This document shows positions 4,001 through 25,531 of a DNA stretch of 61,466 nucleotides, one piece after another. The translations under genes were made by a program, and so were the position numbers. The notes beneath the pieces were generated by a model that had not been told where the DNA came from, did no database searches, and saw only the letters and a list, made by a program, of their open reading frames with translations. The stretch's first letter is position 1. The number at the start of each line of letters is the position of its first letter. Source of the DNA: Gammaproteobacteria bacterium. Lineage in GTDB: Bacteria; Pseudomonadota; Gammaproteobacteria; Thiohalomonadales; Thiohalomonadaceae. Where the stretch lies: positions 1 through 61,466 of the forward strand of contig QKED01000085.1 in assembly GCA_003252455.1 (NCBI GenBank), given 5' to 3'.

Positions 4001-6213
4001 ACGGCGTCGCCGTAGTAGTCGGAGCCACCGACGTCGTCTTCGGTGAACCAGACGCCATCGACGCCGGGGTGGTTGAAGCCGAAGATGACACCGTTGGTGC
4101 CGTTCGGTGCCACGGCGTAGCTCACCAACTGGTCGTCGCCGGTCAGCGGCAGGCCATCGGGCCCGAAGCGCAGATTGAGTTGGCGGGTCCACTCGTCGGT
4201 GCCGCCGACGCTCTCGGTCAGCGCGTAGTCACCATCGACCATATACACACTGCTCGCCACGCGACGCGTGAGGTTGGCCGGTGCCGGGCCGAAGATGCGT
4301 GCGCGCTCGTTGGCCACGAACTCGGCGTAGAGGGCGGCGATCTTGTCACTGGGGTTGACCGCGCTGGCCGCCGGGGCCGTCGGGGTGATGTTCGGCAGGC
4401 TCGGGGTGAAGGAGTAGCCGCTCAGGTCGAAGCGCACCGGGGCCAGCGGGGGCTTCTCGGCGCAGGTGATGGTCACCGTGACGTTGGCCCCGGCAACGGT
4501 GCCGCTGGCGTTGCCCAGGGTGCAGGTGTGGTCGCTCGGCTGGCTGTTGAGGGTCAGCTGATAGTGGCTGCCGTCGGCCACCGAGGCGGCGGCCTGGAAG
4601 GTGCCGTTGCCGCTGCCGCCATCGTTGTTGAAGGTGCTCTCGACCCACAGCTCCCAGGTGACGCTGCCGCTCACCAGGCCGGTGACGCTGCCCTTGATGG
4701 CGTAGTAGTTGAGGGTAGTGGGGGTGACGGTCACGGTGGCGGTCGCGGTGGCGCTGTTACCCGCCGCGTCGCTGACGCTGAAGGTGACGGTGGTGACGCC
4801 CACGGGGAAGCTGGTGGGGGCGTTGTGGGTCACGCTCTGACTCAGGTCGCCGTCGCGGTCGTCGCTGGCGCTGGCCGCGGCGAGGAAGGCGGCGATGGCG
4901 CTGTCGCTGGCGGCCACACTGGTGGCGCCGGGGGCGGCGGCGACGACGATGTTGGTCGGCGCGCTGACCACCGGGGCGACCAGGTCGAGATCGGTCCACT
5001 GGGTCACGGTGATGGTGCTGCTGGCGCTCACCTCGGGGTCGAGCGGCGCGCCGCTGGCGTCGTTGAGGCGCGCGGTGAGGGTGTGTTGACCGGCGCTCAG
5101 GGTGGTACCGATGTTGCCGATCAGGGTGTTGAAGGTCTCGTTCGGCTGGCCGTCGATGAACAGTTGCCAGCTACGCCCGTCGATCAGGCGGTAGTTGCTC
5201 AGGGCGACGCTCAGGGTCAGGTTGACCGCGCCCTGCTCGGTGGCCTGGGCCAGGGTGGCGCCGTTGACCGGGGTGACCAGTACGATGCCTGCCGGGGGCG
5301 GGGTGACCAGGTCGCCAGGGAGGGTGCCGACGTCGGTGCCGGTAAGGTTGGTGACGCTGGCGATGAAGCTGTTGGTCTGGGTGATGAGGGCGCCGAGGCC
5401 GCCGTTGTCCAGGGCGGGCAGGTTGATGTTGCCGCCAGTGCTGGAGAAGAGGGTGATGGGGTTGCCGTCGATACCGAGGCCGTCGAGTACGCCGTCGGCC
5501 ATGTCTTGGGCCAGGGCCAGCGCCAGCTCCAGGCGTGAGGCGGCCGTGGTGGCGTGGTTGGTGATGGCGTCGTCGCCCAGGCGCGAGATACCGCCGAGCA
5601 GGGCGGCGTAGCGGCGCTCGGCGTCGCTGGCGTTGGCGGGGACGTTGTTCGGGTCCGGCGGCACCGTGGTGGTGGGGTCGAAGCCGAAGGTGTTGGTGGC
5701 GTTGCTGATCACCTGGCCCACCGCGTCGCCGAGGGCCACACCGCCGCTCTGCACCATGTGCATGGCACTACGGGTGAGGGCGTGGGAGTAGGGGGTCACC
5801 GCGGCGCTGATGGGGGTGCCGGGGTTGTTCTGCACCATGGAGCTGAGCTCTTCGCCGATGGCGAGGGAGACCACGCTGCCGGTCGCCTCGTCGGTGTAAC
5901 TGCCGCCGGTGGCGACCACCTCGAACGGGCCCACCGCGCTGCTCGGTACGCGACCGCTCCAGCGCCCGGTGCTGTCGCTGGTGAATGGACCGGCCACGCG
6001 GCTGCCGCGGCTGCCGTCGCTGTTGAGGCTATAGATGTTGATCTCGGCGTTGCCGATGGCCCCCTTGGTAACGGAGCCGGAGATGCTTACGCCGGTGGGC
6101 GGTGTGGTGGTGCCACCCCCGCCGCCCCCGCCCCCGCCACATCCGACCGTCAGGCCGAGGGTGAGCAGGAGCAGTGAGGCGGCACGTGTGAGCCGAATAG
6201 TCGTAGGACACAT
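1015..6213 (-). CDS. Giant surface or periplasmic lipoprotein with 17 tandem DG-x-WFTADD repeats and an HYR-like domain
   Basis: The frame is open to 6393, but the likely start is ATG 6213 (1732 aa), since it opens with a lipoprotein signal ending LTVGC (Cys25) and has a GGGAG ribosome site. Cys25 is followed by nine glycines. Residues about 35-90 look like a carboxypeptidase-regulatory-type beta domain. Residues about 408-500 resemble an HYR/Ig-like domain (APVVSAPTNIVV through AGNSATATATVTV). Residues about 680-1280 carry 17 copies of a motif close to GADGxWFTADD, spaced about 35-36 residues apart, with YDAxGN-like segments between them. A second regulatory-like domain follows near 1305-1365. 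The acidic D/G motifs suggest calcium binding and an adhesin or matrix role, which is inference. No catalytic motif is seen. Confidence 0.85.
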   Translation of the reverse strand: MCPTTIRLTRAASLLLLTLGLTVGCGGGGGGGGGTTTPPTGVSISGSVTKGAIGNAEINIYSLNSDGSRGSRVAGPFTSDSTGRWSGRVPSSAVGPFEVVATGGSYTDEATGSVVSLAIGEELSSMVQNNPGTPISAAVTPYSHALTRSAMHMVQSGGVALGDAVGQVISNATNTFGFDPTTTVPPDPNNVPANASDAERRYAALLGGISRLGDDAITNHATTAASRLELALALAQDMADGVLDGLGIDGNPITLFSSTGGNINLPALDNGGLGALITQTNSFIASVTNLTGTDVGTLPGDLVTPPPAGIVLVTPVNGATLAQATEQGAVNLTLSVALSNYRLIDGRSWQLFIDGQPNETFNTLIGNIGTTLSAGQHTLTARLNDASGAPLDPEVSASSTITVTQWTDLDLVAPVVSAPTNIVVAAAPGATSVAASDSAIAAFLAAASASDDRDGDLSQSVTHNAPTSFPVGVTTVTFSVSDAAGNSATATATVTVTPTTLNYYAIKGSVTGLVSGSVTWELWVESTFNNDGGSGNGTFQAAASVADGSHYQLTLNSQPSDHTCTLGNASGTVAGANVTVTITCAEKPPLAPVRFDLSGYSFTPSLPNITPTAPAASAVNPSDKIAALYAEFVANERARIFGPAPANLTRRVASSVYMVDGDYALTESVGGTDEWTRQLNLRFGPDGLPLTGDDQLVSYAVAPNGTNGVIFGFNHPGVDGVWFTEDDVGGSDYYGDAVYIPSGVAYEFNGTQGAILIITSLEPGDDGLPFTADDQPNSYGYQLVLIDGAGHRGEVVTYTSAGSDGLWFTADDTPKLYSLASFDAGGNLLQTTTYNAKGTDNTWFTADDTVQLYIVNTLDANYRPNYAATFNNKGSDGTWFTADDVVSAYSYYGYDADGNLLLLATHTYKGADGTWFTADDSASALVNVKDADGRTQLTVTLTGMGADGIWLTGDESTYGYSYMEYDDAGHQVRSVSFNAAGADGKWLTADDVPNTYNFWTRLYDASGNMLQQVYYNGAGADGQVFTADDTASQYTVRQFDANGNTTATVYIYDMGADGIPFTADDQSPYQLAIPREGGSIYATGSPGPDGTWFTADDPRSGYIRVVNSTAAGVQLENYTYDGTGPDGLWDTEDDQLASYGKAIPTDAYGSYNFVYYGAPGTDGVWFTADDEVSSYSYNTVDGNGNLSGRTTYYLAGEDGLWFTADDPISSTEHYEYEAGGRLLVAATAYSSGTDGLWGTLDDYTGYSAFTYDASGTRTRTTYYNGIGADAIWFSADDLVQSITYERPVAFDAAQTAYNTGSTLGGCTANASASGVIGVLVVDQEGAALAGVTAQLDQSGATATTDASGFAEFSGLTGGHDLHLFKDGYSWESFYCVEPANGLVIQGQLNSTATPATTSQIKLTLNTTNLDSSNIVELRLLDAQGNELARNKDILLYSSTVDLTLPVAAGTQVTGNLWAFEVAWYGSTYKVFDGVLVGGTAQTFTTEASGSTTRTAVDINFAATNPEPVWLSSSTQLIRPEGYQGGLALDLGGLLPLPVVYESSQGRNYASLPSSLDGLFSVTGVTIINGNNYTTSSGWEVQHPLMLEGGSDLIDANFTSSVLFGPAFSSQKGLADANPQLSWTPLRLVSQGSHGGYLDVELVTYVSALSANVPLWTLHLPAGADGLTLPSRPAGLSVDHLSKSSFILGLEEVAVKGLDYQTLISSRDLHDPLPASFDLERFPLDAVGRYLTR
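2376..4180 (-). repeat. Coding tandem repeat array, about 108-bp unit, 17 motif copies
   Basis: Inside the lipoprotein gene the sequence gtcgtcggcggtgaaccag, or close variants, recurs about every 105-110 bp (for example near 3455, 3565, 3673 and 3780). It encodes the minus-strand motif WFTADD. Neighbouring units are similar but not identical, which points to an old array kept under selection rather than a recent expansion. Recombination between units could change copy number. Confidence 0.85.
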
Positions 6214-6245
6214 GATGTAGGACTCCCTGCGGATCGTTTTTCTGA

Positions 6246-6300
6246 CTGTGGAAAATATGTGACCCAAAGAGCATTTTTCACAACCCCCTGTTTGAGGGGG
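6246..6300 (-). promoter_or_regulatory. Candidate promoter of the lipoprotein gene, with a hairpin just upstream
   Basis: On the minus strand TTGTGA (6278-6283) lies 18 bp from CATATT (6254-6259), matching sigma-70 boxes at four of six positions each. It sits about 40 bp before the start codon. Directly upstream, CCCCCT-GTTTG-AGGGGG (6284-6300) forms a short hairpin that may end transcripts of the preceding GGDEF-EAL gene. Boxes were found by eye only. Confidence 0.4.
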
Positions 6301-6383
6301 GCGGAGCCCTTGGTGTGACTTTTCACCCCGCCAATCGGCGTGCGACGGGACGTGCTGGCGGCGGCGTTTGTGCGGGTCGCGCC

Positions 6384-9191
6384 TCAGCCCCACTGTGCCA
6401 GCAGTGCCTCGGCGCTCAGGGGGTGGGCGTAGAGGTAGCCCTGCACCTCGTCACAGCCGGCCTGGCGCAGGAAGTCGCGCTGTGCCGGGGTCTCCACCCC
6501 CTCGGCGAGGACATGCAGCTGCAGGCTGTGACCGAGGGCGATGACCGCCTGGATGATGGCCATATCGTTCTGGTCGCTCGGTACGTCGCGCACGAAGGAT
6601 TGGTCCACCTTGAGGCGCGAGATGGGCAGCTGCTTGAGGTAGGCGAGGGAGGAGTGGCCGGTGCCGAAGTCGTCGATGGCCAGCTCGATGCCCTGGCTGC
6701 GCAGCGACTGCATGATGGGGATGGAGTGCGCCGGGCTGTTCATGACGAAGCTCTCGGTGATCTCCAGCTCCAGCCACTCGGGGCGGCAGCCGGTCTCGCT
6801 CAGGGTCTGGGTGACGGTGTCGAGCAGGTCGCTCTGCTGCAACTGGCGCCCGGAGAGGTTGACCGCCATGCGCCCGGGGTGGAACCCCTGGGCGTGCCAG
6901 CGCACCATCTGGGTGCACGCCTCGCGCAGGATCCAGGCGCCGAGGGGCTCGATCAGGCCGCTCTCCTCGGCCAGGGGGATGAAGCGCCCGGGGGGGATCA
7001 TGCCCAGCTCGGGGTGTCGCCAGCGCACCAGCGCCTCGACGCCGTTGAGGCGCTCGTCGTGCAGGGTGAGCTGTGGTTGGTAGTGCAGGGTGAACTCGCC
7101 GTTGCGCAGCCCCTGGCGGATGCGCGACTCCATCTCGATGCGCTCGCGTGCCAGGTCGGTCAGCTCCTGGGTGTAGAAGCGGAAGCGGTCGCGCCCCTCC
7201 GCCTTGGCGCGGAACATGGCGGCGTCGGCGTTGCGCAGCAGGGTATCCACCTCGGCGCCATCCTCCGGGTAGAGGCTGATGCCGATGCTGGTGGTGAGGT
7301 AGAGCTCCTGCCCCTGGTGCAGCAGCGGGGTCTGCAGTGACTGCAGCACCCGCTGCGCCATCTGTGCCGCGTAGCGCGGCTCGTCCAGCTCGTTGACGAT
7401 GATGATGAACTCGTCGCCCCCCAGGCGCGATACCGAGTCCTCGGCGCGCACCGCCACGGTCAGGCGCTGGGCCACCTCGCGCAGCACCCGGTCGCCCACC
7501 TCGTGCCCCAGGCTGTCGTTGATCTGCTTGAACTGGTCGAGGTCGACGAACAGCACCGCTACGCGCTGCCCGGTGCGTTCGGCGCTGCGCAGCGCACGCG
7601 CCAGGCGGTCGCGGAACAGCAGGCGGTTGGAGAGGCCGGTGAGGGAGTCGTAGTGGGCCAGGTAGTCGAGGTGGCGCTGCTTCTCCTCCAGTAGGCGCTG
7701 GGCCAGGTAGCGCTCGGTGACGTCCTGCACCGTGCCGAAGGAGTGGCGTGCGTGGCCGTGGCCGTCGAACTCACTCTCGCACTGCTCCTCCAGGTATTTC
7801 ACCCGGCCACCGGGGAGCAGGATGCGGTGCTCGATGTGGTAGGGGGTGCGCTGGATGAGCGAGTCGCGGTAGGCGCGGTCGACGCGCAGGCGGTCCTCCG
7901 GGTGGACCAGGTCGAGGAACTCCTCGTAGGTGAGGCTCGGGTGGTCGTGCAGCTCGAAGATGCGGTACGCCTCATCGCTCCAGACCACCTCGTTGCTCTC
8001 CAGGTCGAGGCTCCAGGAGCCGATGTGGGCGATGCGCTGCGCCTGCTCCAGCTGGCTCTGGCTCTGGCGGATGCGCTCCTCGGCGCGCTTGCGCTCGGTG
8101 ATGTCGCGGCTCACGCCGAGTACGCCGAGGGACTCGTCGTGCGGCCCGTAGTAGGGGAGTTTGATGGTCTCCAGCAGTACCTCGTGGCCATCGGGGTAGG
8201 TGACCCACTCCTCGTTGCGCCGGGCGATGCCCGACTGCAGCATCATGCGGTCGTGCAGGCGGAAGTTGTCGGCTATCGGTTGGGGGAAGAGGTCGTAGTC
8301 GTCTTGGCCGATGAGCGTCTCGCGCTCGATGCCGACGAAGCGGGTGAAGGCGTCGTTGCAGCCCTGGTAGTGACCCTGGCTATCTTTGAAGAAGATGAGG
8401 TCGGGGGTGGCGTCGAGGATCGAGCGCAGCAGCGCGTGGTTGTCCGCCAGCGCCTTCTCGCGCTGGCGCAGCTCACTGAGCATGTGGCTGAAGGCCTCGG
8501 CCAGCTCGCCCAACTCGTCGTGGCGCTGCAGCTCGACGGGCTGCGGGTCCTGCCCCTCGCGTGCGCGGTGCGCCTGCTCCACCAACTGGCGCAGCCCCTG
8601 GCTCAGCCCCAGGGCCATGAGCCAGGCGAACAGCAGACCGACACTGATCGCCACCAGGGTGTAGAGGAGCCCTTGTTGCGTCACCAGCCCCAGGTTGTCG
8701 CTGATGGCGCTGTGATCGAAGCCGACCCGCGCCCAGCCCAGGTGGGTCCCCTCCAGCAGGATCGGTACGGCCACGTCGAGCTGCTGCTCGCTCTCGAACA
8801 GACGTTGACGCTGGAGCGGGGCGTCGAGGAGCTGCAGGCTCACCGGGTCGCGCAGGTAGCGCCCCACCTGGGTGCGGTCGGTGTAGCCGAGCACCTGCCC
8901 CTCCGGGTCGACCAGCAGGGCGTACTGTAGGCCGCTGAAACTGTGCTGCGAGGTGATCAGCTCCTCGATGCCCACGTAGTCGCTGGCGAGTACCCAGGAG
9001 GTGGCGTTGGTGGCCAACACCTGGGCCATGCTGAAGGCCTGCTCGTTGCTCTGGGCGTGCAGAAAGGCGCGTTCACGCGAGACCAGGTCGAAGACGAAGA
9101 TGGTCATCAGCACGGCGTGCACCAGGGCGATGCCGAGCATCAGTTGGCGGGTGATGGAGCGGGTCCAGAAGCGGTGCAGGGGACGCAGCAT
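6384..9191 (-). CDS. Membrane PAS-GGDEF-EAL c-di-GMP enzyme
   Basis: This 935-aa protein should make and/or break down cyclic di-GMP at the inner membrane. It has a TM near residues 16-36, a periplasmic sensor region, a second TM near 170-195, a HAMP region (HDELGELAEAFSHMLSEL), and two PAS domains (about 250-500). The GGDEF domain (RLGGDEF near 588) and EAL domain (EALVRW near 718) follow. The GGDEF signature is intact. The EAL metal and catalytic residues I can check are present: VNLSG, LELEITES, DDFGTG, LKVDQ and AEGVET. Both activities are therefore possible, and which dominates cannot be read from sequence. It lies 20 bp downstream of a PhnD-like binding lipoprotein gene on the same strand, so the two probably work as a sensor pair. 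Confidence 0.93.
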   Translation of the reverse strand: MLRPLHRFWTRSITRQLMLGIALVHAVLMTIFVFDLVSRERAFLHAQSNEQAFSMAQVLATNATSWVLASDYVGIEELITSQHSFSGLQYALLVDPEGQVLGYTDRTQVGRYLRDPVSLQLLDAPLQRQRLFESEQQLDVAVPILLEGTHLGWARVGFDHSAISDNLGLVTQQGLLYTLVAISVGLLFAWLMALGLSQGLRQLVEQAHRAREGQDPQPVELQRHDELGELAEAFSHMLSELRQREKALADNHALLRSILDATPDLIFFKDSQGHYQGCNDAFTRFVGIERETLIGQDDYDLFPQPIADNFRLHDRMMLQSGIARRNEEWVTYPDGHEVLLETIKLPYYGPHDESLGVLGVSRDITERKRAEERIRQSQSQLEQAQRIAHIGSWSLDLESNEVVWSDEAYRIFELHDHPSLTYEEFLDLVHPEDRLRVDRAYRDSLIQRTPYHIEHRILLPGGRVKYLEEQCESEFDGHGHARHSFGTVQDVTERYLAQRLLEEKQRHLDYLAHYDSLTGLSNRLLFRDRLARALRSAERTGQRVAVLFVDLDQFKQINDSLGHEVGDRVLREVAQRLTVAVRAEDSVSRLGGDEFIIIVNELDEPRYAAQMAQRVLQSLQTPLLHQGQELYLTTSIGISLYPEDGAEVDTLLRNADAAMFRAKAEGRDRFRFYTQELTDLARERIEMESRIRQGLRNGEFTLHYQPQLTLHDERLNGVEALVRWRHPELGMIPPGRFIPLAEESGLIEPLGAWILREACTQMVRWHAQGFHPGRMAVNLSGRQLQQSDLLDTVTQTLSETGCRPEWLELEITESFVMNSPAHSIPIMQSLRSQGIELAIDDFGTGHSSLAYLKQLPISRLKVDQSFVRDVPSDQNDMAIIQAVIALGHSLQLHVLAEGVETPAQRDFLRQAGCDEVQGYLYAHPLSAEALLAQWG

Positions 9192-9211: not shown

Positions 9212-10135
9212 TTATTCGTTGAGGGGACGCACTTCGCGGGCGAAGCGTTCGATGAACTGCCGTACCGGGCGGTAGGTCTCGCTGTCGGCGGCCTCGAAGC
9301 GTGACAGCTCCATACGCTCCAGGATCGCCCGCCCCTCCTCGCTCTCGTGCAGGCCGAGCAGTAGGTCGCGCACCCGCGCCACTACCCACTCGGGCACCTC
9401 GGGTAACACCACCAGGCCGTTGTTGGGCAGCGACTCGGTCTGCCAGCGTACCTCCAGCGCCTCGGCCAGCTCCGGGCGTTCGCGGCTGAGGGCACGCCAG
9501 GGGGGCGGCCAGGTCGCCCCGGCGGCCACCTGGCCGTGGTAGACATTCATGATCGACGACTCCTGCGAGCCGACGTAGCGATTCTCCAGCTCGCTCTGCA
9601 CCTGGATCCCGTGGCTCTGCAGGTAGTACTGCGGCAGCATGGTGGCGGCCAAGGCGGTGGGGGCGGGGTAGCTCACCGCCTGACCGCGCAGCTGCTCCAG
9701 CCGCTCGATGCCACTGTCCTTGCGCACCAGGAGGATGCCGCGAAAGTTCTCGTCGTCGCCCATCTTGGCGAAGATGCGGTAACCGCGGTCTTCGGCGTTG
9801 ATGGTCTGGTAGGGGTTGGGCAGGGCGAAGTGCAGGCGTCCGGCGTTGAGCTTCTCGTCGAAGGCCGCGTAGTTGCGTGACGCCTCCAGGCGAAAGCGCA
9901 CGCCGGGGATCTGCTCGCTCAGGTAGCGCGTGAGCGGTCCGAACACCTCGAACAGCCGCTGCGGGTTGTGCAGCGGGTGGACGCCGAAGAGGTAGAGTGC
10001 CTCGGGGTGCGGCGAGGTGTCACTGAACTGCGGTGCATAGCGCTCCGTTGGCGGCTTCGAGCAGCCATACAGGAGCAGGAGCACCAATCCGCCGAGGGCC
10101 AGGCGCCACACTCTGCGGATGGGGGGAGCGGACAT
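9212..10135 (-). CDS. PhnD-like periplasmic binding lipoprotein
   Basis: The 307-aa product starts at ATG 10135 (GAGGAG ribosome site); longer in-frame starts would mask the lipoprotein signal, which ends LLLLYGC. The rest resembles the phosphate/phosphonate-type substrate-binding family: FGVHPLHNPQRLFEVFGPLTRYLSEQ, FALPNPYQTI and GQAVSYPAPTALAATMLPQYYL are typical stretches. No permease or ATPase gene is nearby. It is instead followed by a GGDEF-EAL gene 20 bp downstream. In such pairs the binding protein usually presents a ligand to the membrane sensor, but the ligand here is unknown. Confidence 0.87.
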   Translation of the reverse strand: MSAPPIRRVWRLALGGLVLLLLYGCSKPPTERYAPQFSDTSPHPEALYLFGVHPLHNPQRLFEVFGPLTRYLSEQIPGVRFRLEASRNYAAFDEKLNAGRLHFALPNPYQTINAEDRGYRIFAKMGDDENFRGILLVRKDSGIERLEQLRGQAVSYPAPTALAATMLPQYYLQSHGIQVQSELENRYVGSQESSIMNVYHGQVAAGATWPPPWRALSRERPELAEALEVRWQTESLPNNGLVVLPEVPEWVVARVRDLLLGLHESEEGRAILERMELSRFEAADSETYRPVRQFIERFAREVRPLNE

Positions 10136-10416
10136 GGGGACTCCTCGGGTGGCCATGGCAGACCTCGCCAGGGGGGGCGATGGCACATCTTCGTGGCCGC
10201 CGAACGCTGGTGGTTGGGTTGTGTAGTGGAGTAACGCGCCAGCTCCCGCAGAGAGACCCTGTGTAAGAGAACGACTACGTACCTGACCCAAGCATAGGCA
10301 AGGGTGGGTGACTAGGCCACTCGACATAAGCGTGCTACCTGCACCTCTCGTCGCGCTGCGTGTGCCTCGGGGCGAGCGCCCCTCGGTGAGGCACCCGCAA
10401 GCCACCTGTGGCGGCT

Positions 10417-13328: not shown

Positions 13329-14501
13329 TCAGGCAGGGGCGGCGGTGAGGGTGGCCATGAAGCGCTGCAGGGCGAGCAGCTCGGCCTCGGCGTCGTAGAG
13401 GGGCAGGGTCACGGTGAGTTGGGTGTGACGCTCGTCGAGCACCTGCATGGTGATATCGCCCCTCTGGGTCTGCGCGCAGAGCCGGGCGGAGTAGGTGCCG
13501 AGGCCGGTGCCATCGCTCTTGCCGGCGGTGACGTACTTACTAAAGAAGGTGGGGCGGATCGCCTCGGGGATCGCCCCGGGGTTGGTGATGCGCACCGCCA
13601 CGCACCCCGCGCCACGCTCGATGTCGATGTGGAGGGTGGCCTCGTGCGGCGCCGCCTCCAGGGCGTTCTTGATCAGGTTTTCGAACATGGAGAAGGCGAG
13701 CATCGACTCGCCCTTGGCCAGGCACTGGCTGTCGTTGCCGATCGGTACCCCCTGCAGGCGGATCTCGGCGCGTTGCCCCTTGTCGGCGTAGGCGAGCAGG
13801 GCGTCCTGGGTGATGCCGCGCAGCAGCGGGACCAGGTCCATCGGCTCGGCATTCAGGCTGTAGGTGCCGGTCTCCATCTTATAGAGGTCGAGGGAGCGGT
13901 TGATCATCTTCAGGATGCGGTGACCCGCCTGCTCGATCTGGTTGAGCACCTGGCGATCGGCGTCCTGCAGGGCACAGCGCTCGGCGAGCAGGGCGGGGCC
14001 GGAGATGACGATATTGAGTGGCGCCTTGAGGTCGTGCTGGGTGATGCGCTCCACGTCGTCGCGCAGGCGGGCGGTCTCCTCCAGGGCCTGATTCTTCTCC
14101 TCCAGCTCCCGCTGCATCTGGCGGATATGCAGGTGGGTGGCGACGCGGGCACGGACGATGGAGGGGCGGATCGGTTTGGTGATGTAGTCCACCGCGCCGA
14201 GGGCGAGGCCGTGTGCCTCGTCCTCGTCGTCGTCGCGCGCGGTGATGAAGAGCACCGGGATATCCGCCGTCTCGGCGTCGGCCTTGAGCCGCTGACACAC
14301 CTCGTAGCCGTCCAGCTCCGGCATCACCACATCGAGCAGGATGAGGTCCGGCGGTGGCGACTGGCGTGCCAGCTCCAGGCCGCGCAGGCCGTTGGGGGCG
14401 GCCTTGATCTTGTACTGTTCGCGCAGGATGCCGTTGAGCACCGAGATGATCTCGGTGGAGTCGTCGACGATCAGTAGGGTGGGTTGTTGGACGGTGGACA
14501 T
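13329..14501 (-). CDS. Response regulator fused to a histidine-kinase-like module
   Basis: The 390-aa protein has an N-terminal receiver domain (VDD at 12-14, phospho-acceptor Asp57 in LILLDVVMPELDGYEVC, Lys109 in YITKP). A short coiled segment precedes a kinase core with the H-box ITQHDLKAPL (His156) and an ATP-binding domain (FENLIKNALEAAP, GTGLGTYSARL). No membrane segment is present, so it acts in the cytoplasm. It begins 9 bp after the hybrid kinase gene, on the same strand, and is probably its phosphorelay partner. There is no DNA-binding or cyclase output, so the signal must leave through another protein. Confidence 0.9.
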   Translation of the reverse strand: MSTVQQPTLLIVDDSTEIISVLNGILREQYKIKAAPNGLRGLELARQSPPPDLILLDVVMPELDGYEVCQRLKADAETADIPVLFITARDDDEDEAHGLALGAVDYITKPIRPSIVRARVATHLHIRQMQRELEEKNQALEETARLRDDVERITQHDLKAPLNIVISGPALLAERCALQDADRQVLNQIEQAGHRILKMINRSLDLYKMETGTYSLNAEPMDLVPLLRGITQDALLAYADKGQRAEIRLQGVPIGNDSQCLAKGESMLAFSMFENLIKNALEAAPHEATLHIDIERGAGCVAVRITNPGAIPEAIRPTFFSKYVTAGKSDGTGLGTYSARLCAQTQRGDITMQVLDERHTQLTVTLPLYDAEAELLALQRFMATLTAAPA

Positions 14502-14510
14502 GGCGCGCTC

Positions 14511-17681
<3,171 letters not shown>

Positions 17682-18063
17682 GGGGGCGTCCGAGCTGGGT
17701 CGCCCGCTACCGTCGCGCGGTGGGTAGGGGCGGACTTGGGTCTAACAAGCAGCACGAGTGTCAGGGAACCGGCATCCCGTGCCGCGGGGGTATGCCGGTC
17801 GCCGCGTGAGGCAGCGATTACACCGGGTCGCTTATTCCTTATATTCAATAGGAGAATCATACCAATAGGGCGCCGCAGAGCGCCATTGGGGCGGTTTTTC
17901 TGCACCAAAACGTCACGATTCGGGCGTGTCGGGTGGGGCCGGGGCGCCACGCTTCGAACGCTGCATCTGTCCGCTGGCCCGCAGGCCACCCCCGTGCCGC
18001 CCCTTGGCCGGGGGGGCGCAATTCGTCACACTGAGGGGCCGATCCCGATGCTATGGAGCGTGT
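17682..18063. other. 382-bp divergent intergenic region with a hairpin and an AT-rich tract
   Basis: No gene is supported here. Two divergent transcripts should start in it. An inverted repeat (accggcat 17768-17775 / atgccggt 17792-17799, with an inner cccg/cggg pairing) forms a long hairpin. An AT-rich tract at 17831-17865 (ttattccttatattcaata) is the best promoter candidate. No known operator was recognised. Confidence 0.5.
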
Positions 18064-18765
18064 GTGGTGCAGATCCCCGAACGATACCAACCCCAAGCCC
18101 TGAGCGATGAGGCCCGCGAGGGGTGGTTCGCCTGGTCGCTCGACTTCTTCACCGAGCCGGAGGTACTCCAGGTGCCCTATGTGGACCTCACCCTGCAGTT
18201 GGAGGTAGGGGCGGCCTACGCGCGCTATCTGCGCCAGGAGGCCCCGGGGGGGAGCTTCTTCGCCTACCTCATCTGGCACTTCGTGCAGGGCTTCAAGTCA
18301 CACCCCTCGTTTCTGCTGCGTCAGGTCGATGGGGTGTGGTGGCTGCTGCGCAACCCGCCGGTGATCGTGCCCATCGCGGTGGCGGGGCCGCACCGCTTTC
18401 GCGAGTTGGTGTTGGAGGATGTGGCGCTGCTCGACTACCCCGCCTTCTGTGTCCACTACCGCGAGCAGTTGGCGCGGGCACGTGCCGGGGTGGCCGAACG
18501 CCCCGCCCCGGAACTCTTCTACCTCGGCCACTTCTTCGGCAACCTGCCCAATCTGCCGTTCAGCGGCCTGACCCTGCACTACCGCCGCGAATCCATCGCC
18601 GGGCAAAGCCTCTTCTACTTCGGTAAGCGCTACCGCCTAGAGGGGCGGTTGCACATCCCGTTGGCGGCGAAGTTGCACCACGCCTGCACCGACCCCCATG
18701 TGCTCGACCTGCTGCTGGCCGATGTGCAGCGCGCCATGCGTGGTGGGGGCGTGCACGGTGGTTGA
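18064..18765 (+). CDS. Chloramphenicol-acetyltransferase-like acyltransferase superfamily protein
   Basis: The frame is open from 17926, but GTG 18064 (or GTG 18067) has a GGAG site at the right distance and gives 233 aa. The product resembles the CAT fold: SFFAYLIWHFVQGFKSHPSFLLR in the first half, and near the C-terminus IPLAAKLHHACTDPHVLDLL. That segment matches the catalytic HHAVCDG region with the key His and Asp retained. CAT enzymes move acetyl from acetyl-CoA to small hydroxyl compounds. The substrate here is unknown, and drug resistance should not be assumed. The stop overlaps the next gene by 8 bp, suggesting an operon with the binding protein and the c-di-GMP sensor. Confidence 0.7.
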   Translation: MVQIPERYQPQALSDEAREGWFAWSLDFFTEPEVLQVPYVDLTLQLEVGAAYARYLRQEAPGGSFFAYLIWHFVQGFKSHPSFLLRQVDGVWWLLRNPPVIVPIAVAGPHRFRELVLEDVALLDYPAFCVHYREQLARARAGVAERPAPELFYLGHFFGNLPNLPFSGLTLHYRRESIAGQSLFYFGKRYRLEGRLHIPLAAKLHHACTDPHVLDLLLADVQRAMRGGGVHGG

Positions 18766-19717
18766 GCGTCTACGGCGTCGGCTGCTCGCCGCGCTGGCGT
18801 TCACCCCCGCCCTGGCGCTGGGCGGCTGTACACGTGCGGCGCCCCTGCGCTTGGGTCTGCACCCCTGGATCGGGTATGACTCCCTGCCCATCGCCGAGGC
18901 GCTGGGCTGGCTCCCCCCCGAGGTGACCCTGCACAGCGGGGCGGCGGCCAGCGACAGCCTGGCGGGGCTGCGCGCGGGCACTCTGGACGCGGCTTGCGTG
19001 ACCCTCGACGAGGTGCTCCAACTGCGCGCCGCCGGGGTGTCGATGACCCTGGTGGCGGTGATGGACATCTCCGCCGGGGCCGATGTGCTGCTCACCCGCG
19101 CCGAGGTCGGTGACCTGACCGAACTTGCCGGTCGGCGTCTCGCGCTGGAGTTCTCTGCCCTCGGCGAGCTGATGCTGGTGGAGGTGTTGGAGCGCGCCGG
19201 GCTCAGCCGAGAGCAGGTGCGCCTGGTCAATCTGCCGCCGGACCAACATCTGGGCGCCTGGCAGGCGGGGCGTATCGACGCCTCGATCTGCTACGAGCCG
19301 GTGGCCAGTCGCCTGCAGCGGCTGGGGGCGGTGCGACGCTTCGACAGTCGCGAGGCACCCGAGCTGATCTTCGACGTGTTGGCGGTCCGCAGCGAGCGCC
19401 TGGCGCCCTGCGCCGAGGCGCTGCGGGGGGCCTTGATGGCGCACTTTCGCGGCCTCGATCACCTGCGCGAGAACCGCCAGGATGCCCTGCTGCGTATCGC
19501 TACCCTGCACCGTATGCACCACGACGAGGTGCGCGAGGCGCTCGCGGGTCTGGTCTTTCCCAGCCTGCGCGCCAACTACAACTACCTGCAGCCGCAGTCA
19601 CGCCTCTATCGGGTGGCCGAGCACCTCAATGCGATCCTCTTGCAGCATCAGGTGATCGCCAAGGCGGCACCGCTCGATGGCCTCTGCAGCGCGGCCTACC
19701 TGCCGCAGGAGGGCTGA
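18758..19717 (+). CDS. NMT1/SsuA-like periplasmic binding lipoprotein
   Basis: The best start is GTG 18758, inside the end of the previous gene, giving 319 aa and a lipoprotein signal ending ALALGGC. The mature part is like nitrate/sulfonate/thiamine-precursor binding proteins: LRLGLHPWIGYDSLPIAEALGWL, AGTLDAACVTLDEVLQLRAAG, AGRIDASICYEPVASRLQ. No ABC permease or ATPase lies nearby. The stop TGA is directly followed by the ATG of a sensor that also carries its own PhnD-like domain. The likely role is ligand sensing for c-di-GMP signalling rather than uptake. The ligand is unknown. Confidence 0.85.
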   Translation: MVERLRRRLLAALAFTPALALGGCTRAAPLRLGLHPWIGYDSLPIAEALGWLPPEVTLHSGAAASDSLAGLRAGTLDAACVTLDEVLQLRAAGVSMTLVAVMDISAGADVLLTRAEVGDLTELAGRRLALEFSALGELMLVEVLERAGLSREQVRLVNLPPDQHLGAWQAGRIDASICYEPVASRLQRLGAVRRFDSREAPELIFDVLAVRSERLAPCAEALRGALMAHFRGLDHLRENRQDALLRIATLHRMHHDEVREALAGLVFPSLRANYNYLQPQSRLYRVAEHLNAILLQHQVIAKAAPLDGLCSAAYLPQEG

Positions 19718-22700
19718 ATGCGCCGCCTGCTCCTTATTTTGTGCTTGCTCTGCGGCACCGGCGCGCAGGCGCAGCAGCACCTCACCCTGGGGGTCCTCGC
19801 CTATCGTCCCAAGCCGATCATGGTGCAGCGCTATCAGCCCCTGGTGGACTACCTCAATACCCGTCTGCCGGAGGTGCACATCGAGCTGGCGGTGCTCGAT
19901 CAACCGGCGATCGACCAGGCCGTGGCGCGCAATCAGCTCGATCTGGTCTTCACCAACCCCAGCCACTACATCCGCCTGCGCAGCGAAAACTCCCTCGCCA
20001 GCCTGCTCGGGACCCTCAGCCGCCCAGGCCTTGGTGGTGGCCTGAGCGCCCTTGGCGGGGTGATCCTCACGCGCGCCGAAAACAGTCAGATCACCACACT
20101 CGAAGCGCTCCGTGGTGCGCGCATTGCCATCCCCGGGGTGCACTTCCTCGGCGGCTATCAGACCCAGGCGCTGGAGCTGCTGGAGGTGGGTATCCGCCTG
20201 CCCGAGGAGGCCCAGCTCATCACCGTGGGGAGCCACGATGCGGTGATCGAGGCGCTGCTCAGTGGGCGCGCCGAGGTGGGCTTCGTGCGTAGCGGGGTGG
20301 TCGAGCAGCTCGGTGCCGAGGGGCGGATCGACCCCGCGCGCCTGCGCGTGATCCACCCCCAGAGCCTCTACGGCTTCCCCTGGCGCCTCTCCACCCGACT
20401 CTACCCCGAGTGGCCGCTGCTCGCCCTGCCGCAGGTGGACGAGGAGGTGGTGCGCCACCTCACCGCGGCCCTGCTGCTGCTGGAGGAGGGGGACCCCGCC
20501 TGCCGTGCGGCGGGGATCCGCGGCTTCATCCCGCCGCTCGACTACCACCCGGTGGATGAGCTGGCGCGGCGCCTGCATCTCCCCCCCTACTCGGGCGAGG
20601 TGCCGGTGGGCTGGGTCGAATTCTGGCGTCAGCACCGCCTGGCCATCACCCTGCTCTGTGTGAGCGCGCTGCTGGTGCTGCTCCTCTCCTTGCTGTTGGC
20701 GCGGCGCAATCGCCTATTGAGCTACGCCCTACAGGGGCGCCACGCCGCCGAGCAGGCGCACCGGCGCAGTGAAGAGCGGTTCGAGTTGGCCATGCGCGGG
20801 GCCAACGACGGCCTCTGGGACTGGGACCTGGTGAGCAACCAGATCTACTTCTCACCGCGCTGGAAGGAGATGCTCGGCTACGCCCCCGGGGAGCTGGCCA
20901 ACCAGCTCTCCAGCTGGGAGGCGCTGGTGGAGCAGGGCGATCGCATGCACGCCCTGGCCCGGCTCAATGACTACCTGCAGGGGCAGGTGGGGGAGTACAA
21001 GGTGGAGTACCGCATGCGGCACAAAGAGGGGCACTGGGTGCACATCCTCTCGCGTGCGCAACTGGTGCGCGACGCCGCAGGGAACCCAGTGCGCCTGGTC
21101 GGTACGCACGTGGACATCACCCAGATGAGGGCGGTGGCGGCGCGTCTGGAGGAGGAGCGTAACCGCGCCGAGCAGTACCTCAAGGTGGCACGGGTGATGC
21201 TGGTAGCGCTCGATCGCGAGGCGCGGGTGAGCATGATCAACCCGCGCGGCTGCGAGATCCTCGGCCTGTCGGCAGAGGCGATCGTCGGTCGCCACTGGCT
21301 CGACGAGTTCATCCCCGAGGCGGCGCGCGCCGCGGTCACCGGCTACTACTACGCCCTGATGGCGGGTGAGGACACGCTGGTCGAATTCGTCGAGAACCCG
21401 GTCCTCGACGCCCAGGGGCGCATCCACCTCATCGCCTGGCACAACAGCGTGGTGCGCGATGCCAAGGGGGAGATCGTCGGTGCCCTCTCCTCTGGCGAGG
21501 ACATCACCGAGCAGCGCCGTATGCAGCGCTCCCTGGAGCAGGCGCTGGCGTTTCGCGACGGCATGCTCAAGACCCTCCCCGACCTGGTCTGGCTCAAGGA
21601 CCGCGAGGGGCACTACCTGGCCTGCAATCGCCTGTTCGAGCGCTTCTTCGGTGCCGAGGAGGCTGCGATCATCGGCAAGACCGACTTCGACTTCGTCGAG
21701 GGCGCCCTGGCCGAGACCTTCCGTGCCTACGACCTGGCGGTGCTCGACGGCGGCGTGCCGATCAGCAACGAGGAGTGGGTGACGTTCGCCGACGACGGCC
21801 GCCGCGCCCTGCTGCTGACCACCAAGACCCCCATGTACAACGCCGCCGGTGAGCTGCTCGGGGTGCTCGGTGTGGGGCGTGACATCACCCGCCAGCGCGA
21901 ATACGAGCAGCAGCTCGAACAGGTGGCGCACTTCGACGCCCTCACCCACCTGCCCAACCGCGTCCTGCTCGCCGATCGACTGCAGCAAGATATGGAGCAC
22001 GTGCGTCGGGGCGATGGCCTGCTGGCCATCGGTTACCTCGACCTGGATGGCTTCAAACCGATCAACGACGCATACGGCCACACGGTCGGCGACCAGGTGC
22101 TCTACCGCTTGGCCCAGGCGCTCAAGCAGACGCTGCGGGCCGGCGACACGGTGGCGCGCCTGGGCGGTGACGAGTTCGTGCTGGTGCTCTCCGGTCTGCT
22201 CACCACACGCGACGCCCTGCCGCTGCTGCGCCGCATCCTCAAGACCTGCGCCGAGCCGATGCAGCTGGAGGGGCTCCGCCTGAGCGTCTCCGCCAGCCTC
22301 GGGATCACCTTCTATCCGCAACAGGAGGAGGTGACGGCGGAGCAGTTGTTACGTCAGGCGGACCAGGCGATGTACCGCGCCAAGCTGCTCGGCAAGAACC
22401 GCTACCAGCTCTTCGATGAGGGCGAAGATAGCCAGTTGCGCACCCTCAACGAGGAGTTGGAGCGCTTCCGCCGTGCCCTGCGCGCGGGCGAGCTGCGCCT
22501 CTTCTACCAGCCCAAGGTCAACCTGCGGCTGGGTCGGGTGGTCGGGGTCGAGGCGCTGGTGCGCTGGCAGTGCCCGGGGCGTGGGCTGCTCGGCCCGGGC
22601 GAGTTTCTACCGCTTATCGAGGGGCACGAGCTGATCCTGGCGCTGGGCGATTGGGTACTGGAGCAGGCGCTGACACAGATGGAGGCGTGGCTCGACCAGG

Positions 22701-23593
22701 GCATCGAGATGCCGGTGAGCATCAATGTCGCGGCGCGCCAGCTGGAGCAGCCGGGCTTCATCGGCTGGCTCAAGGGGCGCCTGCAGGGCCACCCTCGGGT
22801 CGCGCCGCGCCTGCTGGAGCTGGAGGTGCTGGAGACCAGTGCACTCAACGAGTTGCAGCGCATCTCCGAGATCCTCCACGCCTGTCGCGACCTAGGTGTG
22901 GGCTTCGCGCTGGACGACTTCGGGACCGGCTACTCCTCCCTCGCCTATCTCAAGCGGCTGCCGGTGACGCGCCTGAAGATCGACCAGGGCTTTATCCGCG
23001 ACCTGCTCGAAGACCCGGAGGACTTCGCCATCCTCGATGCCGTGCTCGGTCTGGCCAACGCCTTCCGCCTGCAGGTGATCGCCGAGGGGGTGGAGAGCCG
23101 TGAACACGGCGTGCTGCTGTTGCAGTTCGGCTGTGAGGAGGCTCAGGGCTTCCACCTGGCGCGACCGATGCCGCCCGAGGCGTTCCTCCCGTGGCTCCAG
23201 GCGTGGCGCCCCGACCCGGTGTGGGCCGAGACGCGCAGGGTAAGCCGCGACGACCTCTCGGCGCTCTACGCCTTTGTCGAGCACAAGGCGTGGGTCGCGC
23301 GGGTGATCCGCTACCTGCATGGGGAGGAGGTGAAGCTGCCGGAGCTGGACCACCGCCTGTGTCGCTTCTCGCGCTGGCTGGAGGCGGCCCCCAAGCACTT
23401 CAATGCGCCTGAGGCGCTCGCCGAGATCGCCCGTCAACACCAGCATATCCACCAGTTGGCCGACCAGGCGTTGGCGCGTCAGGCCCATTGGGACTTCAAC
23501 GAGCAGGCCGAACAGTTGGCGGCGCTACGTGCCCAACGCGACCGCCTGCTAGAGCAGTTGCGCGAGTTGGTCGACTTCACCCTGCCGGGGTGA
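19718..23593 (+). CDS. PhnD-PAS-PAS-PAS-GGDEF-EAL-CZB c-di-GMP sensor
   Basis: The 1291-aa protein has a signal peptide (1-19), a PhnD-like periplasmic domain (about 20-290), and a TM near 308-332. Three PAS domains (about 350-735), GGDEF (RLGGDEF near 815) and EAL (EALVRW near 944) follow. The C-terminal domain fits a CZB zinc sensor: His1189, Cys1215, His1241 and His1245 with spacing H-x25-C-x25-H-x3-H and the typical C-x3-R/K-W pattern. EAL residues DDFGTG, LKIDQ and AEGVES are intact. In DgcZ a CZB domain lets zinc inhibit diguanylate cyclase activity, so zinc control is inferred. The ATG follows the upstream stop directly, so translation is coupled to the binding lipoprotein. Confidence 0.93.
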   Translation: MRRLLLILCLLCGTGAQAQQHLTLGVLAYRPKPIMVQRYQPLVDYLNTRLPEVHIELAVLDQPAIDQAVARNQLDLVFTNPSHYIRLRSENSLASLLGTLSRPGLGGGLSALGGVILTRAENSQITTLEALRGARIAIPGVHFLGGYQTQALELLEVGIRLPEEAQLITVGSHDAVIEALLSGRAEVGFVRSGVVEQLGAEGRIDPARLRVIHPQSLYGFPWRLSTRLYPEWPLLALPQVDEEVVRHLTAALLLLEEGDPACRAAGIRGFIPPLDYHPVDELARRLHLPPYSGEVPVGWVEFWRQHRLAITLLCVSALLVLLLSLLLARRNRLLSYALQGRHAAEQAHRRSEERFELAMRGANDGLWDWDLVSNQIYFSPRWKEMLGYAPGELANQLSSWEALVEQGDRMHALARLNDYLQGQVGEYKVEYRMRHKEGHWVHILSRAQLVRDAAGNPVRLVGTHVDITQMRAVAARLEEERNRAEQYLKVARVMLVALDREARVSMINPRGCEILGLSAEAIVGRHWLDEFIPEAARAAVTGYYYALMAGEDTLVEFVENPVLDAQGRIHLIAWHNSVVRDAKGEIVGALSSGEDITEQRRMQRSLEQALAFRDGMLKTLPDLVWLKDREGHYLACNRLFERFFGAEEAAIIGKTDFDFVEGALAETFRAYDLAVLDGGVPISNEEWVTFADDGRRALLLTTKTPMYNAAGELLGVLGVGRDITRQREYEQQLEQVAHFDALTHLPNRVLLADRLQQDMEHVRRGDGLLAIGYLDLDGFKPINDAYGHTVGDQVLYRLAQALKQTLRAGDTVARLGGDEFVLVLSGLLTTRDALPLLRRILKTCAEPMQLEGLRLSVSASLGITFYPQQEEVTAEQLLRQADQAMYRAKLLGKNRYQLFDEGEDSQLRTLNEELERFRRALRAGELRLFYQPKVNLRLGRVVGVEALVRWQCPGRGLLGPGEFLPLIEGHELILALGDWVLEQALTQMEAWLDQGIEMPVSINVAARQLEQPGFIGWLKGRLQGHPRVAPRLLELEVLETSALNELQRISEILHACRDLGVGFALDDFGTGYSSLAYLKRLPVTRLKIDQGFIRDLLEDPEDFAILDAVLGLANAFRLQVIAEGVESREHGVLLLQFGCEEAQGFHLARPMPPEAFLPWLQAWRPDPVWAETRRVSRDDLSALYAFVEHKAWVARVIRYLHGEEVKLPELDHRLCRFSRWLEAAPKHFNAPEALAEIARQHQHIHQLADQALARQAHWDFNEQAEQLAALRAQRDRLLEQLRELVDFTLPG

Positions 23594-23600
23594 ACGGCGC

Positions 23601-24617
23601 TCACATACTGAACAGGTAGCTGCCGCGCACCGCCCAGGTGATGAGGAAGATGCCGCTCACCAGCAGCAGCGGGAAGCCGAACAGTGCCCAGCGGTCGAGC
23701 TGCTGGATACTCCAGGCGAGGTTTTGTGCCTCCTCGCTCTCCCCCTCAAGCCGCTCCAGGCGCCCCTGCAGGCGCGAGGTCCAGATGGCCACCAGCAGCA
23801 CCAGAAAGGTGATCAGGTAGCAGAAGTTGAACACGTGGTCGAGCAGCAGCAGCATGCCGACGCTGGGCAACGGGGCGACGAAGCTCAGGTAGAGGAACAC
23901 CTCGGTGAGCAGGGCGCCGATGGGGGTGCCGATGCGCAGGTCGATGTAGCTCGGGTCGACCAGGAAGATGACGATGCAGCTGAGCAGCACGATGAGGATC
24001 GGCGGGATGATCTTGAACAGGTAGAAACTCATGGGGCGCTCGATCTTGAGGCCGAAGCGGTAGCGCGAGTACTCCTGCCCACCCGCCTCGTCGAGGCCGA
24101 AGGCGCCCGGGTAGCGCACCCCCCTCTCCTCGTTGTAGAACTCTAGGATGCGCCAACCGGGGATGCGCAGGTCGGGGTTCATGGCGCTCTGCTCGGTGTC
24201 GGGCACGAAGCGCACCTGCTCGCGTTCGAGGCCGCGTAGCTCCAACTCCACCAGCACCTTCTGCCAGTCCAGCGGGAAGGTGCCGAGCCAAAATTTGTGG
24301 AAGAACTTCGCCTCGATGTAGTAGCGCTGGTAGTGGCTGCCGTCCGCCAGGGTCAGCGGCTCCGGGTAGTAGGGGTCGAGGGTGAGGGCCCAGGCGTCGT
24401 TGAGGTTGAGCCAGTTGAGGTGGGCGGTGGGGTCGATCTGGCCGCGCCAGCGTAGCCAGAGATAGGCGTTGACGTAGTAGGTGTTGCTCGCCAGGTCGAT
24501 GCTCTCGACGTTGTTCAGGTAGGCGCCGACGCGCACCTCCTCGGCCGCCTGCAGTGGGCCCAGCAGGGCGAACCACAGGCCGAGGAGGAGGGCAGCGAGG
24601 GGGACGGGGCGATGCAT
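23601..24617 (-). CDS. Bacterial pentameric ligand-gated ion channel (Cys-loop receptor family)
   Basis: Start ATG 24617 (338 aa) gives a clear signal peptide ending PLQAAEE. The extracellular beta domain has FPLDWQKVLVELEL, which matches the conserved region of the family, and has no cysteines, as usual for prokaryotic members. The pore part is typical: pre-M1/M1 ERPMSFYLFKIIPPILIVLL, M2 RIGTPIGALLTEVFLYLSF ending near PLPSVG, M3 LLDHVFNFCYLITFLVLL, and M4 WALFGFPLLLVSGIFLITW. GLIC and ELIC are the studied models (proton- and amine-gated). The ligand and ion choice here are unknown. It lies 71 bp downstream of a glycosyltransferase gene on the same strand. Confidence 0.9.
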   Translation of the reverse strand: MHRPVPLAALLLGLWFALLGPLQAAEEVRVGAYLNNVESIDLASNTYYVNAYLWLRWRGQIDPTAHLNWLNLNDAWALTLDPYYPEPLTLADGSHYQRYYIEAKFFHKFWLGTFPLDWQKVLVELELRGLEREQVRFVPDTEQSAMNPDLRIPGWRILEFYNEERGVRYPGAFGLDEAGGQEYSRYRFGLKIERPMSFYLFKIIPPILIVLLSCIVIFLVDPSYIDLRIGTPIGALLTEVFLYLSFVAPLPSVGMLLLLDHVFNFCYLITFLVLLVAIWTSRLQGRLERLEGESEEAQNLAWSIQQLDRWALFGFPLLLVSGIFLITWAVRGSYLFSM

Positions 24618-24688
24618 GGGGCGTTCCTGCTGGGTATGGGTCCGGGGCCATGATGCCCGCTCGGGGTGCCACTGCCTAGCCGTGTGCC

Positions 24689-25531
24689 TCAATCGCTGCG
24701 CCCGCTCTGGTCACGCAGCCAGCGTCCGCGCAGCCCGAGCCGCCGCCAGAGGCGCGCCCCTACTTCGAGCGTCAGGGTGATGGCGAGGTAGATGGGCAGG
24801 CTGACCCAGTTGCCGGGGTCACGCAGCAGCATCAGCAACTGGCCACCGGTGTGGCTGCGGGTGCCGCGTCGGGCCTCGGGGCGGTCGTGCAGGAGTTGTC
24901 GGTTGCCAAAGCGGATTCGCAGCCCCATGCGCAGTAGGTCGATGAGTCGTTTGGGGGGGTAGAAGCGGGCCGTGGCCGCGGCACACAGGCCGCGTTCGTG
25001 CGGGGCGAAGTGGCTGCGTACGAAGGCATCGTCGGCGATCAGGCGGGGAAAGCGCTCGAAGCGTGCCCGCCCCGCCGCGCTGAGGGCGTAGAGGCCGTTG
25101 CCGATGGCCCCCTCACGCAGGTAGGGGAGTTGGGTCCAGATGCGGTAGTAGTGGCGCACCAGGGCGCTGCGCCCCTGGAGCTCGGGCTCGAAGCGGGGCG
25201 AGAGGGCGAGGTGAGGCCCCGCCTGCAGCTGCGCGGCGATGGCGCGGGCCGCCGCCGCGTCGAGGAGGATGTCGGCATCGAGGTAGAGGCGCGGAAAGTG
25301 GCGTGCCGCCGCGTCGCCGAGGTTGAGGGCGTGCCCCTTGCCCCCCTCGGGGGTGTCGATCACCTCCACCCCGGGGAAGGCGCGGGCGCGCTCGACGGTG
25401 CGGTCGCTACAGGCGTTGGCCACTACCAGGGTCTGACACTCGCCCGCGCCCAGCCCGTCGGTGAGCCGGGTCAGGCAGCGGGTGATCACCGCCTCCTCGT
25501 TGTGTGCGGGGATGATGATGGTGAAGGGCAT
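24689..25531 (-). CDS. Family 2 glycosyltransferase
   Basis: The 280-aa protein opens with the GT2 nucleotide-sugar fold: FTIIIPAHNEEAVITRCLTRL, TLVVANACSDRT, and the DxD-like site LYLDADILLD. A hydrophobic stretch near residues 245-265 (NWVSLPIYLAITLTLEVGARL) may anchor it to the inner membrane. It should move a sugar from an NDP-sugar to a lipid or polysaccharide acceptor, which cannot be named. It follows the radical SAM gene by 15 bp and is probably co-transcribed with it. Confidence 0.88.
   Translation of the reverse strand: MPFTIIIPAHNEEAVITRCLTRLTDGLGAGECQTLVVANACSDRTVERARAFPGVEVIDTPEGGKGHALNLGDAAARHFPRLYLDADILLDAAAARAIAAQLQAGPHLALSPRFEPELQGRSALVRHYYRIWTQLPYLREGAIGNGLYALSAAGRARFERFPRLIADDAFVRSHFAPHERGLCAAATARFYPPKRLIDLLRMGLRIRFGNRQLLHDRPEARRGTRSHTGGQLLMLLRDPGNWVSLPIYLAITLTLEVGARLWRRLGLRGRWLRDQSGRSD

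Follow-up and report, generated by a model that had tools for sequence, protein, structure and literature searches.

A candidate split receptor for c-di-GMP control: an NMT1-type binding protein encoded before a PhnD-PAS-GGDEF-EAL-CZB sensor

In a 61,466-nucleotide contig of a gammaproteobacterium (QKED01000085.1, assembly GCA_003252455.1; this whole stretch is called the window hereafter), a gene for a free solute-binding protein of the NMT1 (SsuA/TauA) type directly precedes a gene for a 1291-aa sensor, which carries a binding domain of its own, of the PhnD type, and ends in GGDEF, EAL, and CZB domains. What does a free binding protein do beside a sensor when no TauBC-type transporter is encoded with it? 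We propose that the NMT1 protein, a predicted lipoprotein, and the sensor constitute one split receptor with two Venus flytraps that controls cyclic diguanylate (c-di-GMP), a reading to which we assign a probability of about 0.68. By analogy, it is best read as a receptor of the NspS-MbaA/AioX-AioS kind with a DgcZ-type zinc site. An earlier note, made from the sequence alone, had joined both genes and an upstream acyltransferase-like gene into one coupled unit without a transporter; for the binding protein and the sensor, this was borne out by a link that recurs across the phylum and by nine loci at which an NMT1 gene precedes a PhnD sensor.

The NMT1 protein and a downstream sensor recur across the phylum

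In a first search, 27 of 95 related genomes encoded relatives of the NMT1 protein, and in the 20 loci fetched the close relatives precede kinases or c-di-GMP enzymes. At locus L009, the two genes form a unit with a 4-base overlap. Thirteen sensor-linked sequences, including that of the window, were combined into a profile, which matched 140 of 398 phylum genomes at 1e-20, with the best five candidates per genome scored. Neighbors were then surveyed at the 60 best places outside the genome of the window. A signaling gene lay directly downstream of 49 of the 50 closest relatives (better than 1e-60; 46 called by script and three, L124, L143, and L144, by reading), an ABC (ATP-binding cassette) gene downstream of none, and one locus was cut by a contig end; the next ten relatives comprised eight ABC-linked and two sensor-linked ones. 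As a background, a signaling gene stood directly downstream of 26 of the 320 other genes at these loci; in this count, unlike in the survey, a PAS match was not accepted as signaling. Three labels rest on one kind of match, PAS at L142 and a receiver at L114 and L125, and L154 was left unclear; at L142, a HAMP-PAS frame overlaps the PAS-kinase frame that comes after it. Although spread over 17 family codes and 23 genera, the 50 closest loci are not independent, because 28 of them come from one family. The gap between the NMT1 and sensor genes was 15 bases or less in 62 of 66 loci, where negative gaps use the longest possible start and may overstate the overlap. The NMT1 lipoprotein and its downstream sensor are thus a real recurring module across the phylum.

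Sensor-linked and ABC-linked members of the family differ at their N-termini. By a strict pattern, a lipobox was present in 52 of 67 sensor-linked proteins and in 1 of 12 ABC-linked ones (Fisher p 8e-6), and a cysteine occupied the column of Cys24 of the window protein in 60 of 67 and 1 of 12, respectively. The single ABC-linked case, L063, adjoins one ABC gene, an ATPase, and its protein falls among the sensor-linked ones in the tree. The NMT1 protein is probably tethered to the membrane by a lipid anchor. In a tree of 82 sequences (67 sensor-linked, 12 ABC-linked, and 3 unclear), the sensor and ABC labels required two changes, and 11 of the 12 ABC-linked sequences grouped together with two unclear ones (support 85 in the Shimodaira–Hasegawa-like approximate likelihood ratio test, SH-aLRT). 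Nine of the sensor-linked proteins share a half of the drawn tree, whose root is uncertain, with the ABC group, so that the sensor-linked proteins do not emerge as one clade.

Domains of the sensor and its pairing with the NMT1 protein

The three genes of the unit are tightly packed (Table 1). The first gene, which resembles chloramphenicol acetyltransferase (CAT), overlaps the NMT1 gene by 8 bases, and the ATG of the sensor abuts the TGA of the NMT1 gene, with AGGAGG close upstream. The earlier note had described these junctions, and the coordinates of the open reading frames (ORFs) agree with it. A scan of positions 17500-23900 for sigma-70-like sites gave one site, against 0.3 expected, and no other; its position upstream of the CAT-like gene fits a single transcription unit, although it does not prove one. 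An Rfam scan of positions 17000-25000 returned nothing at gathering scores.

Table 1. Genes, sensor domains, and putative promoter of the unit (positions in the window)
Feature	Positions	Strand	Description
Possible unit promoter, sigma-70-like site	17817..17845	+	9/12, consensus match only; upstream of CAT-like gene
CAT-like ORF	18064..18765	+	232-233 aa; start GTG 18064 or 18067, stop TGA 18765
NMT1/SsuA-TauA-type solute-binding protein with lipobox (Cys24)	18758..19717	+	319 aa; GTG start, TGA stop; predicted co-receptor
PhnD-TM-PAS3-GGDEF-EAL-CZB sensor (TM, transmembrane)	19718..23593	+	1291 aa; ATG start, TGA stop; Pfam
Fused PhnD-like (Phosphonate-bd) periplasmic domain	19790..20542	+	residues 25-275; Pfam 2.6e-44
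Hydrophobic, presumably transmembrane segment	20639..20713	+	about residues 308-332; read from sequence
Three PAS regions	20840..21901	+	about residues 375-464, 481-606, 618-728; Pfam PAS_3, PAS_4; TIGR00229, three stretches
GGDEF domain	21926..22402	+	2e-46; intact GGDEF (816), I-site RxxD (807)
EAL domain	22460..23167	+	1.7e-68; EAL, NVA, DDFGTG, LKID, AEGVE motifs
CZB zinc-binding domain	23282..23473	+	3.9e-9; 37.2 bits vs cut-off 29.4; H1189 C1215 H1241 H1245

Pfam searches of the sensor and the NMT1 protein supported the domains that had been called from the letters, all of them scoring above the respective cut-offs, the CAT assignment being weaker. A motif scan showed that the GGDEF set, including the I-site, and the EAL catalytic set are both intact; we take these motifs to have their generally known roles, in which case the sensor should both make and break c-di-GMP. 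The C-terminal domain with the pattern H-x25-C-x25-H-x3-H, proposed previously as a CZB site, scored above the Pfam cut-off, and its four ligands align with the pattern of Escherichia coli DgcZ. The accompanying suggestion, that a ligand outside the cell and zinc inside it together set c-di-GMP, holds at the level of the domains present, whereas the function is a prediction. The cytoplasmic half of the sensor is nearest to two GGDEF-EAL proteins of the same genome that are encoded together (43% and 53% identity) and both carry CZB, and the sensor as a whole resembles a fusion of a PhnD input with a PAS-GGDEF-EAL-CZB body specific to this genome. Elsewhere in the genome, locus L044 (4392-16169) carries three GGDEF-EAL genes, two of them ending in CZB, and a GGDEF-EAL paralog on L043 (5722-8667) has a CZB-like end in which the Cys (QSHF) and the last His are missing, so that it probably does not bind zinc.

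PhnD- and PtxB-type phosph(on)ite-binding proteins have an STS-H ligand motif (PMC5700983). In the fused PhnD domain, the STS of PtxB aligned to F143-L144-G145, with the His of the motif kept, and eight aligned NMT1-linked PhnD domains have L-G-G-(Y/F)-Q in common at this position. Given the loss of STS, the ligand of the domain is probably neither phosphonate nor phosphite.

In the receptor that we propose, the lipid-anchored NMT1 protein would bind a small solute through its SsuA/TauA fold and dock on the periplasmic part of the sensor, where the PhnD-type flytrap would serve as a docking surface or as a second ligand site. Flytrap closure would be relayed via the transmembrane helix and the three PAS domains to the GGDEF-EAL pair, shifting the balance between c-di-GMP synthesis and degradation, and the CZB domain could add a cytoplasmic input of zinc, possibly of oxidant. 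From the sequences, we infer docking, lipidation, the identity of the ligand, the two enzyme activities, and the direction of the response.

The pairing itself is visible at nine loci, where the frame after the NMT1 gene carries a PhnD domain: the window, L009, L122, L123, L133, L141, L143, L144, and L145. Their outputs vary among kinase, GGDEF, and GGDEF-EAL. The sensor is PhnD-GGDEF at L009, PhnD-PAS-GGDEF at L141, PhnD-kinase-receiver at L122, L123, and L133, and PhnD-PAS with a kinase ATPase domain at L145; at L143, PhnD-PAS is followed by a separate kinase-receiver frame, and the sensor of L144 is broken in frame. In a quick tree, all nine NMT1 proteins fall into a single clade (SH-aLRT 99), which was found with a PhnD sensor in 9 of 9 cases. 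Moreover, three groups are common to the NMT1 and PhnD trees, namely the window with L141, L123 with L133, and L145 with L143 and L144; L184, which is cut at a contig start, also lies inside this last group of the PhnD tree. At L143 (6385-7722) and L144 (2830-5365), the PhnD sensors lie in separate frames that are broken at different places; the two loci belong to different genomes, whose NMT1 and PhnD sequences are nearly identical, and the breaks may represent broken genes or assembly errors.

Several observations weigh against a single split receptor. A reverse search with the PhnD domain at 1e-30 gave 43 places in 36 of 398 genomes, of which 30 loci were read over 1.5 kb or less upstream. 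An NMT1 gene was present at eight of them (the window, six model members, and an eighth near-identical to a model row), and none was visible at the other 22, three of which (L184, L191, and L195) are cut by contig ends just upstream; a PhnD domain can therefore work alone. The linked PhnD domains do not form one clade in their own tree (four changes), and that of L122 groups with three unlinked ones (support 84/78), which confines the claim of one origin to the NMT1 side. Three of the nine NMT1 proteins of the PhnD-paired clade (L122, L123, and L133) lack the lipobox Cys, and the sensors of L142, L143, and L144 are split or broken in frame. Furthermore, since the profile was made from 13 sensor-linked sequences, the border of the NMT1 family was partly set by choice.

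The frequency of PhnD sensors with no visible NMT1 gene, together with the arginine-sensing fused domain of RmcA (PMC8846402), would also suit two separate sensors: the PhnD flytrap would directly recognize a ligand of its own, in the style of RmcA or TtrS, and the NMT1 lipoprotein would only scavenge or buffer a ligand, without docking. We consider this unlikely. The NMT1 family also stands beside sensors without a PhnD domain (58 rows), and its link is therefore to the receptor gene as such; in addition, the single clade of the nine PhnD-linked NMT1 proteins and the three sister groups shared by both trees speak against two separate sensors.

Transport and the CAT-like gene

Pfam matched the NMT1 protein to NMT1 (1.9e-10) and NMT1_2 (3.5e-10), and its scores lay below the cut-offs of the NCBIfam models matched. 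Its structure was predicted from an alignment of two sequences, and the best of five models was used (predicted local distance difference test, pLDDT, 75.4), the other four being poor (43-51). The nearest structure to this best model was SsuA (2x26; Z 27.1, root-mean-square deviation 2.7 over 280 residues), and TauA was also found. The PotD/PotF polyamine type was considered for the free protein and rejected, as NMT1 and SsuA-family models matched instead. Residues W37, S105, G107, and D109 are conserved also in ABC-linked relatives, E131 and D174 less so, and as a guess, the ligand may be related in kind to that of these relatives. Two of the five ABC-linked relatives scanned passed the cut-off of the sulfonate subfamily model.

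The SsuA/TauA fold and the four shared residues are what would be expected if the lipoprotein still served an ABC permease encoded elsewhere and its adjacency to the sensor just coupled uptake to c-di-GMP. The earlier note had seen no transporter gene and had named such a permease as the finding that would count against it. A comparison of the window with TauB, TauC, and CysT references gave no matching frame at 1e-3. The genome encodes two permeases of the TauC type (at 1e-5), and both have partners of their own: that on C116 adjoins an ATPase and an NMT1-type protein (220-888), and that on C87 an ATPase and an NMT1_2-type binding protein. Among the permeases of this type, none was thus found to depend on the NMT1 protein of the window; the search did not extend to PhnE-type permeases. 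Together with the lipobox contrast and the lack of ABC genes beside the 50 closest relatives, this makes continued service to a permease very improbable, and the NMT1 protein seems to have left nutrient uptake.

We then considered whether the CAT-like gene belongs to the signaling unit. Against Pfam CAT (PF00302), its product scored 16.2 bits, below the gathering cut-off of 23.5, but its match to PDB 2i9d (9.2e-6) includes an alignment of the HHxxxD region. Its motif reads HHACTD, in which we assume the His to be the catalytic His of chloramphenicol acetyltransferase; the second His and the Asp are also kept in a Persicobacter relative. A single-sequence fold prediction reached a pLDDT of 34.9. 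Relatives are scarce: none was found in 276 other related genomes (277 were searched, the genome of the window giving the sole match) or at 81 loci with NMT1 homologs, and four weak partial matches (67-92 residues) came from the 397 other genomes of the phylum set, which overlaps the 277-genome set. Among 72,556 plasmid records, three matched, two of them from Persicobacter with 36-38% identity over most of the length. One Persicobacter copy is annotated as a CatA-like O-acetyltransferase; the genes listed around it are unrelated and include neither a binding protein nor a sensor. The other copy contains a stop codon and comes from a record without annotation. The GC (guanine-cytosine) content gave no sign of a foreign origin for the CAT-like gene.

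On this distribution, we rejected the CAT-like gene as a part of the signaling unit. The triplet of CAT-like, NMT1, and PhnD-sensor genes, expected by the earlier note to be conserved, is seemingly a local arrangement, and its guess of a small acylated signal found no support, as the CAT-like gene was not found beside the pair elsewhere. That acylation by the enzyme produces or inactivates the ligand, the three genes forming a unit of signal production and sensing, has only a slim chance of being right, since the 8-base overlap and the kept His and Asp of the motif stand against the absence of matches at homologous loci and in related genomes and against the unrelated neighbors of the annotated far relative. 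Most likely, the CAT-like gene is a passenger or bystander that is transcribed along with the pair.

Relation to known systems and neighboring genes

Tandem-flytrap kinases such as BvgS and EvgS feed two flytraps into one receptor, both in one chain; in the window, by contrast, one of the two flytraps is a lipoprotein on its own, from a different Pfam family. Free binding proteins are also known to act on receptors. NspS-MbaA is a signaling pair in which the free binding protein acts on the receptor (PMC9993111). As in the window, its gene in Vibrio cholerae and Sinorhizobium meliloti directly precedes that of a transmembrane GGDEF-EAL protein, and the nspS and mbaA genes overlap. However, NspS is PotD-like and recognizes polyamines, whereas the free protein of the window is an NMT1/SsuA-type lipoprotein, and the sensor differs from MbaA by its PhnD flytrap, three PAS domains, and CZB domain. 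AioX and AioS, encoded in one operon, provide the first signaling step in arsenite sensing through a free PhnD-fold binding protein and a sensor (PMC5908839); there, the free partner is the PhnD-like one, and a histidine kinase serves as the output. In AioX, Ser161 and Ser163 are retained, whereas the STS positions are lost in the PhnD domain of the window.

RmcA of Pseudomonas aeruginosa likewise combines a fused binding-protein domain with several PAS domains, GGDEF, and EAL, but its binding domain is an SBP_bac_3 arginine domain in place of Phosphonate-bd and its PAS domains number four; the text available from this source mentions neither a CZB domain nor a partner lipoprotein for RmcA (PMC8846402). 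Residues 20-347 of the sensor match the model of the tetrathionate kinase TtrS (NF040750) with 115.4 bits. Membership was rejected, as the cut-off is 750 bits and the output is not a kinase; no place in the genome exceeded this cut-off. Finally, DgcZ (YdeH) resembles the sensor in having a CZB domain with three His and one Cys in a c-di-GMP enzyme (our alignment; PMC8846402). The domain is N-terminal in DgcZ, whereas it is C-terminal, after EAL, in the sensor.

What differs here from these known cases is an NMT1/SsuA lineage that appears throughout the phylum as a lipobox-bearing, signaling-linked family, the pairing with a second flytrap in one clade, and the added zinc site. In a wider view, one NMT1/SsuA-type lineage would have left transport and become a phylum-wide set of lipid-anchored co-receptors whose outputs were exchanged among kinase, cyclase, and cyclase-phosphodiesterase; one clade would have been paired with a second-flytrap receptor, and in the window a zinc domain would have been gained, so that c-di-GMP is computed from two outside inputs and zinc. 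We regard this as an even bet. A literature search found no study of this NMT1-sensor branch, which does not show its absence from print. According to a 2022 review, of the 27 families in the periplasmic-binding-protein clan, SBP_bac_3 alone had been investigated in the context of c-di-GMP networks (PMC8846402). Only about ten characterized cases of binding proteins that activate sensor kinases are listed in a survey of the same year (PMC9602780). A binding-protein lineage largely devoted to signaling, whose gene keeps a constant position ahead of a partner with exchanged outputs, offers a test set for how such proteins drive receptors and which ligands are sensed.

Other pairs of binding proteins and sensors occur in the same genome. 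In the window, a gene for a free PhnD protein (9212 to about 10130, in the frame 9212-10405, minus strand), with a lipobox-like LLLYGC read from the sequence, lies 20 bases before an sCache_3-HAMP-PAS-GGDEF-EAL gene (6384-9191, minus strand). Further free-PhnD/sensor pairs are located on L044, L045, and L047, that of L047 being recognized as PhnD by phmmer only; on L044, the free PhnD gene precedes one of the three GGDEF-EAL genes with a 4-base overlap. L051 carries a second NMT1-kinase pair.

Tail to tail with the sensor, a minus-strand gene (23601-24692) encodes a relative of pentameric ligand-gated ion channels, which matched a GLIC-glycine receptor chimera (4x5t) at 4.4e-14 and gave no Pfam match at 0.01. 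On the other side, a dCache_3-kinase-receiver-Hpt hybrid (14511-17681, minus strand) is divergent from the unit and is followed by a receiver-kinase gene (13329-14501). Farther away, positions 1015-6393 (minus strand) encode a lipoprotein-like protein of 1792 aa with many repeats of the GADGxWFTADD type.

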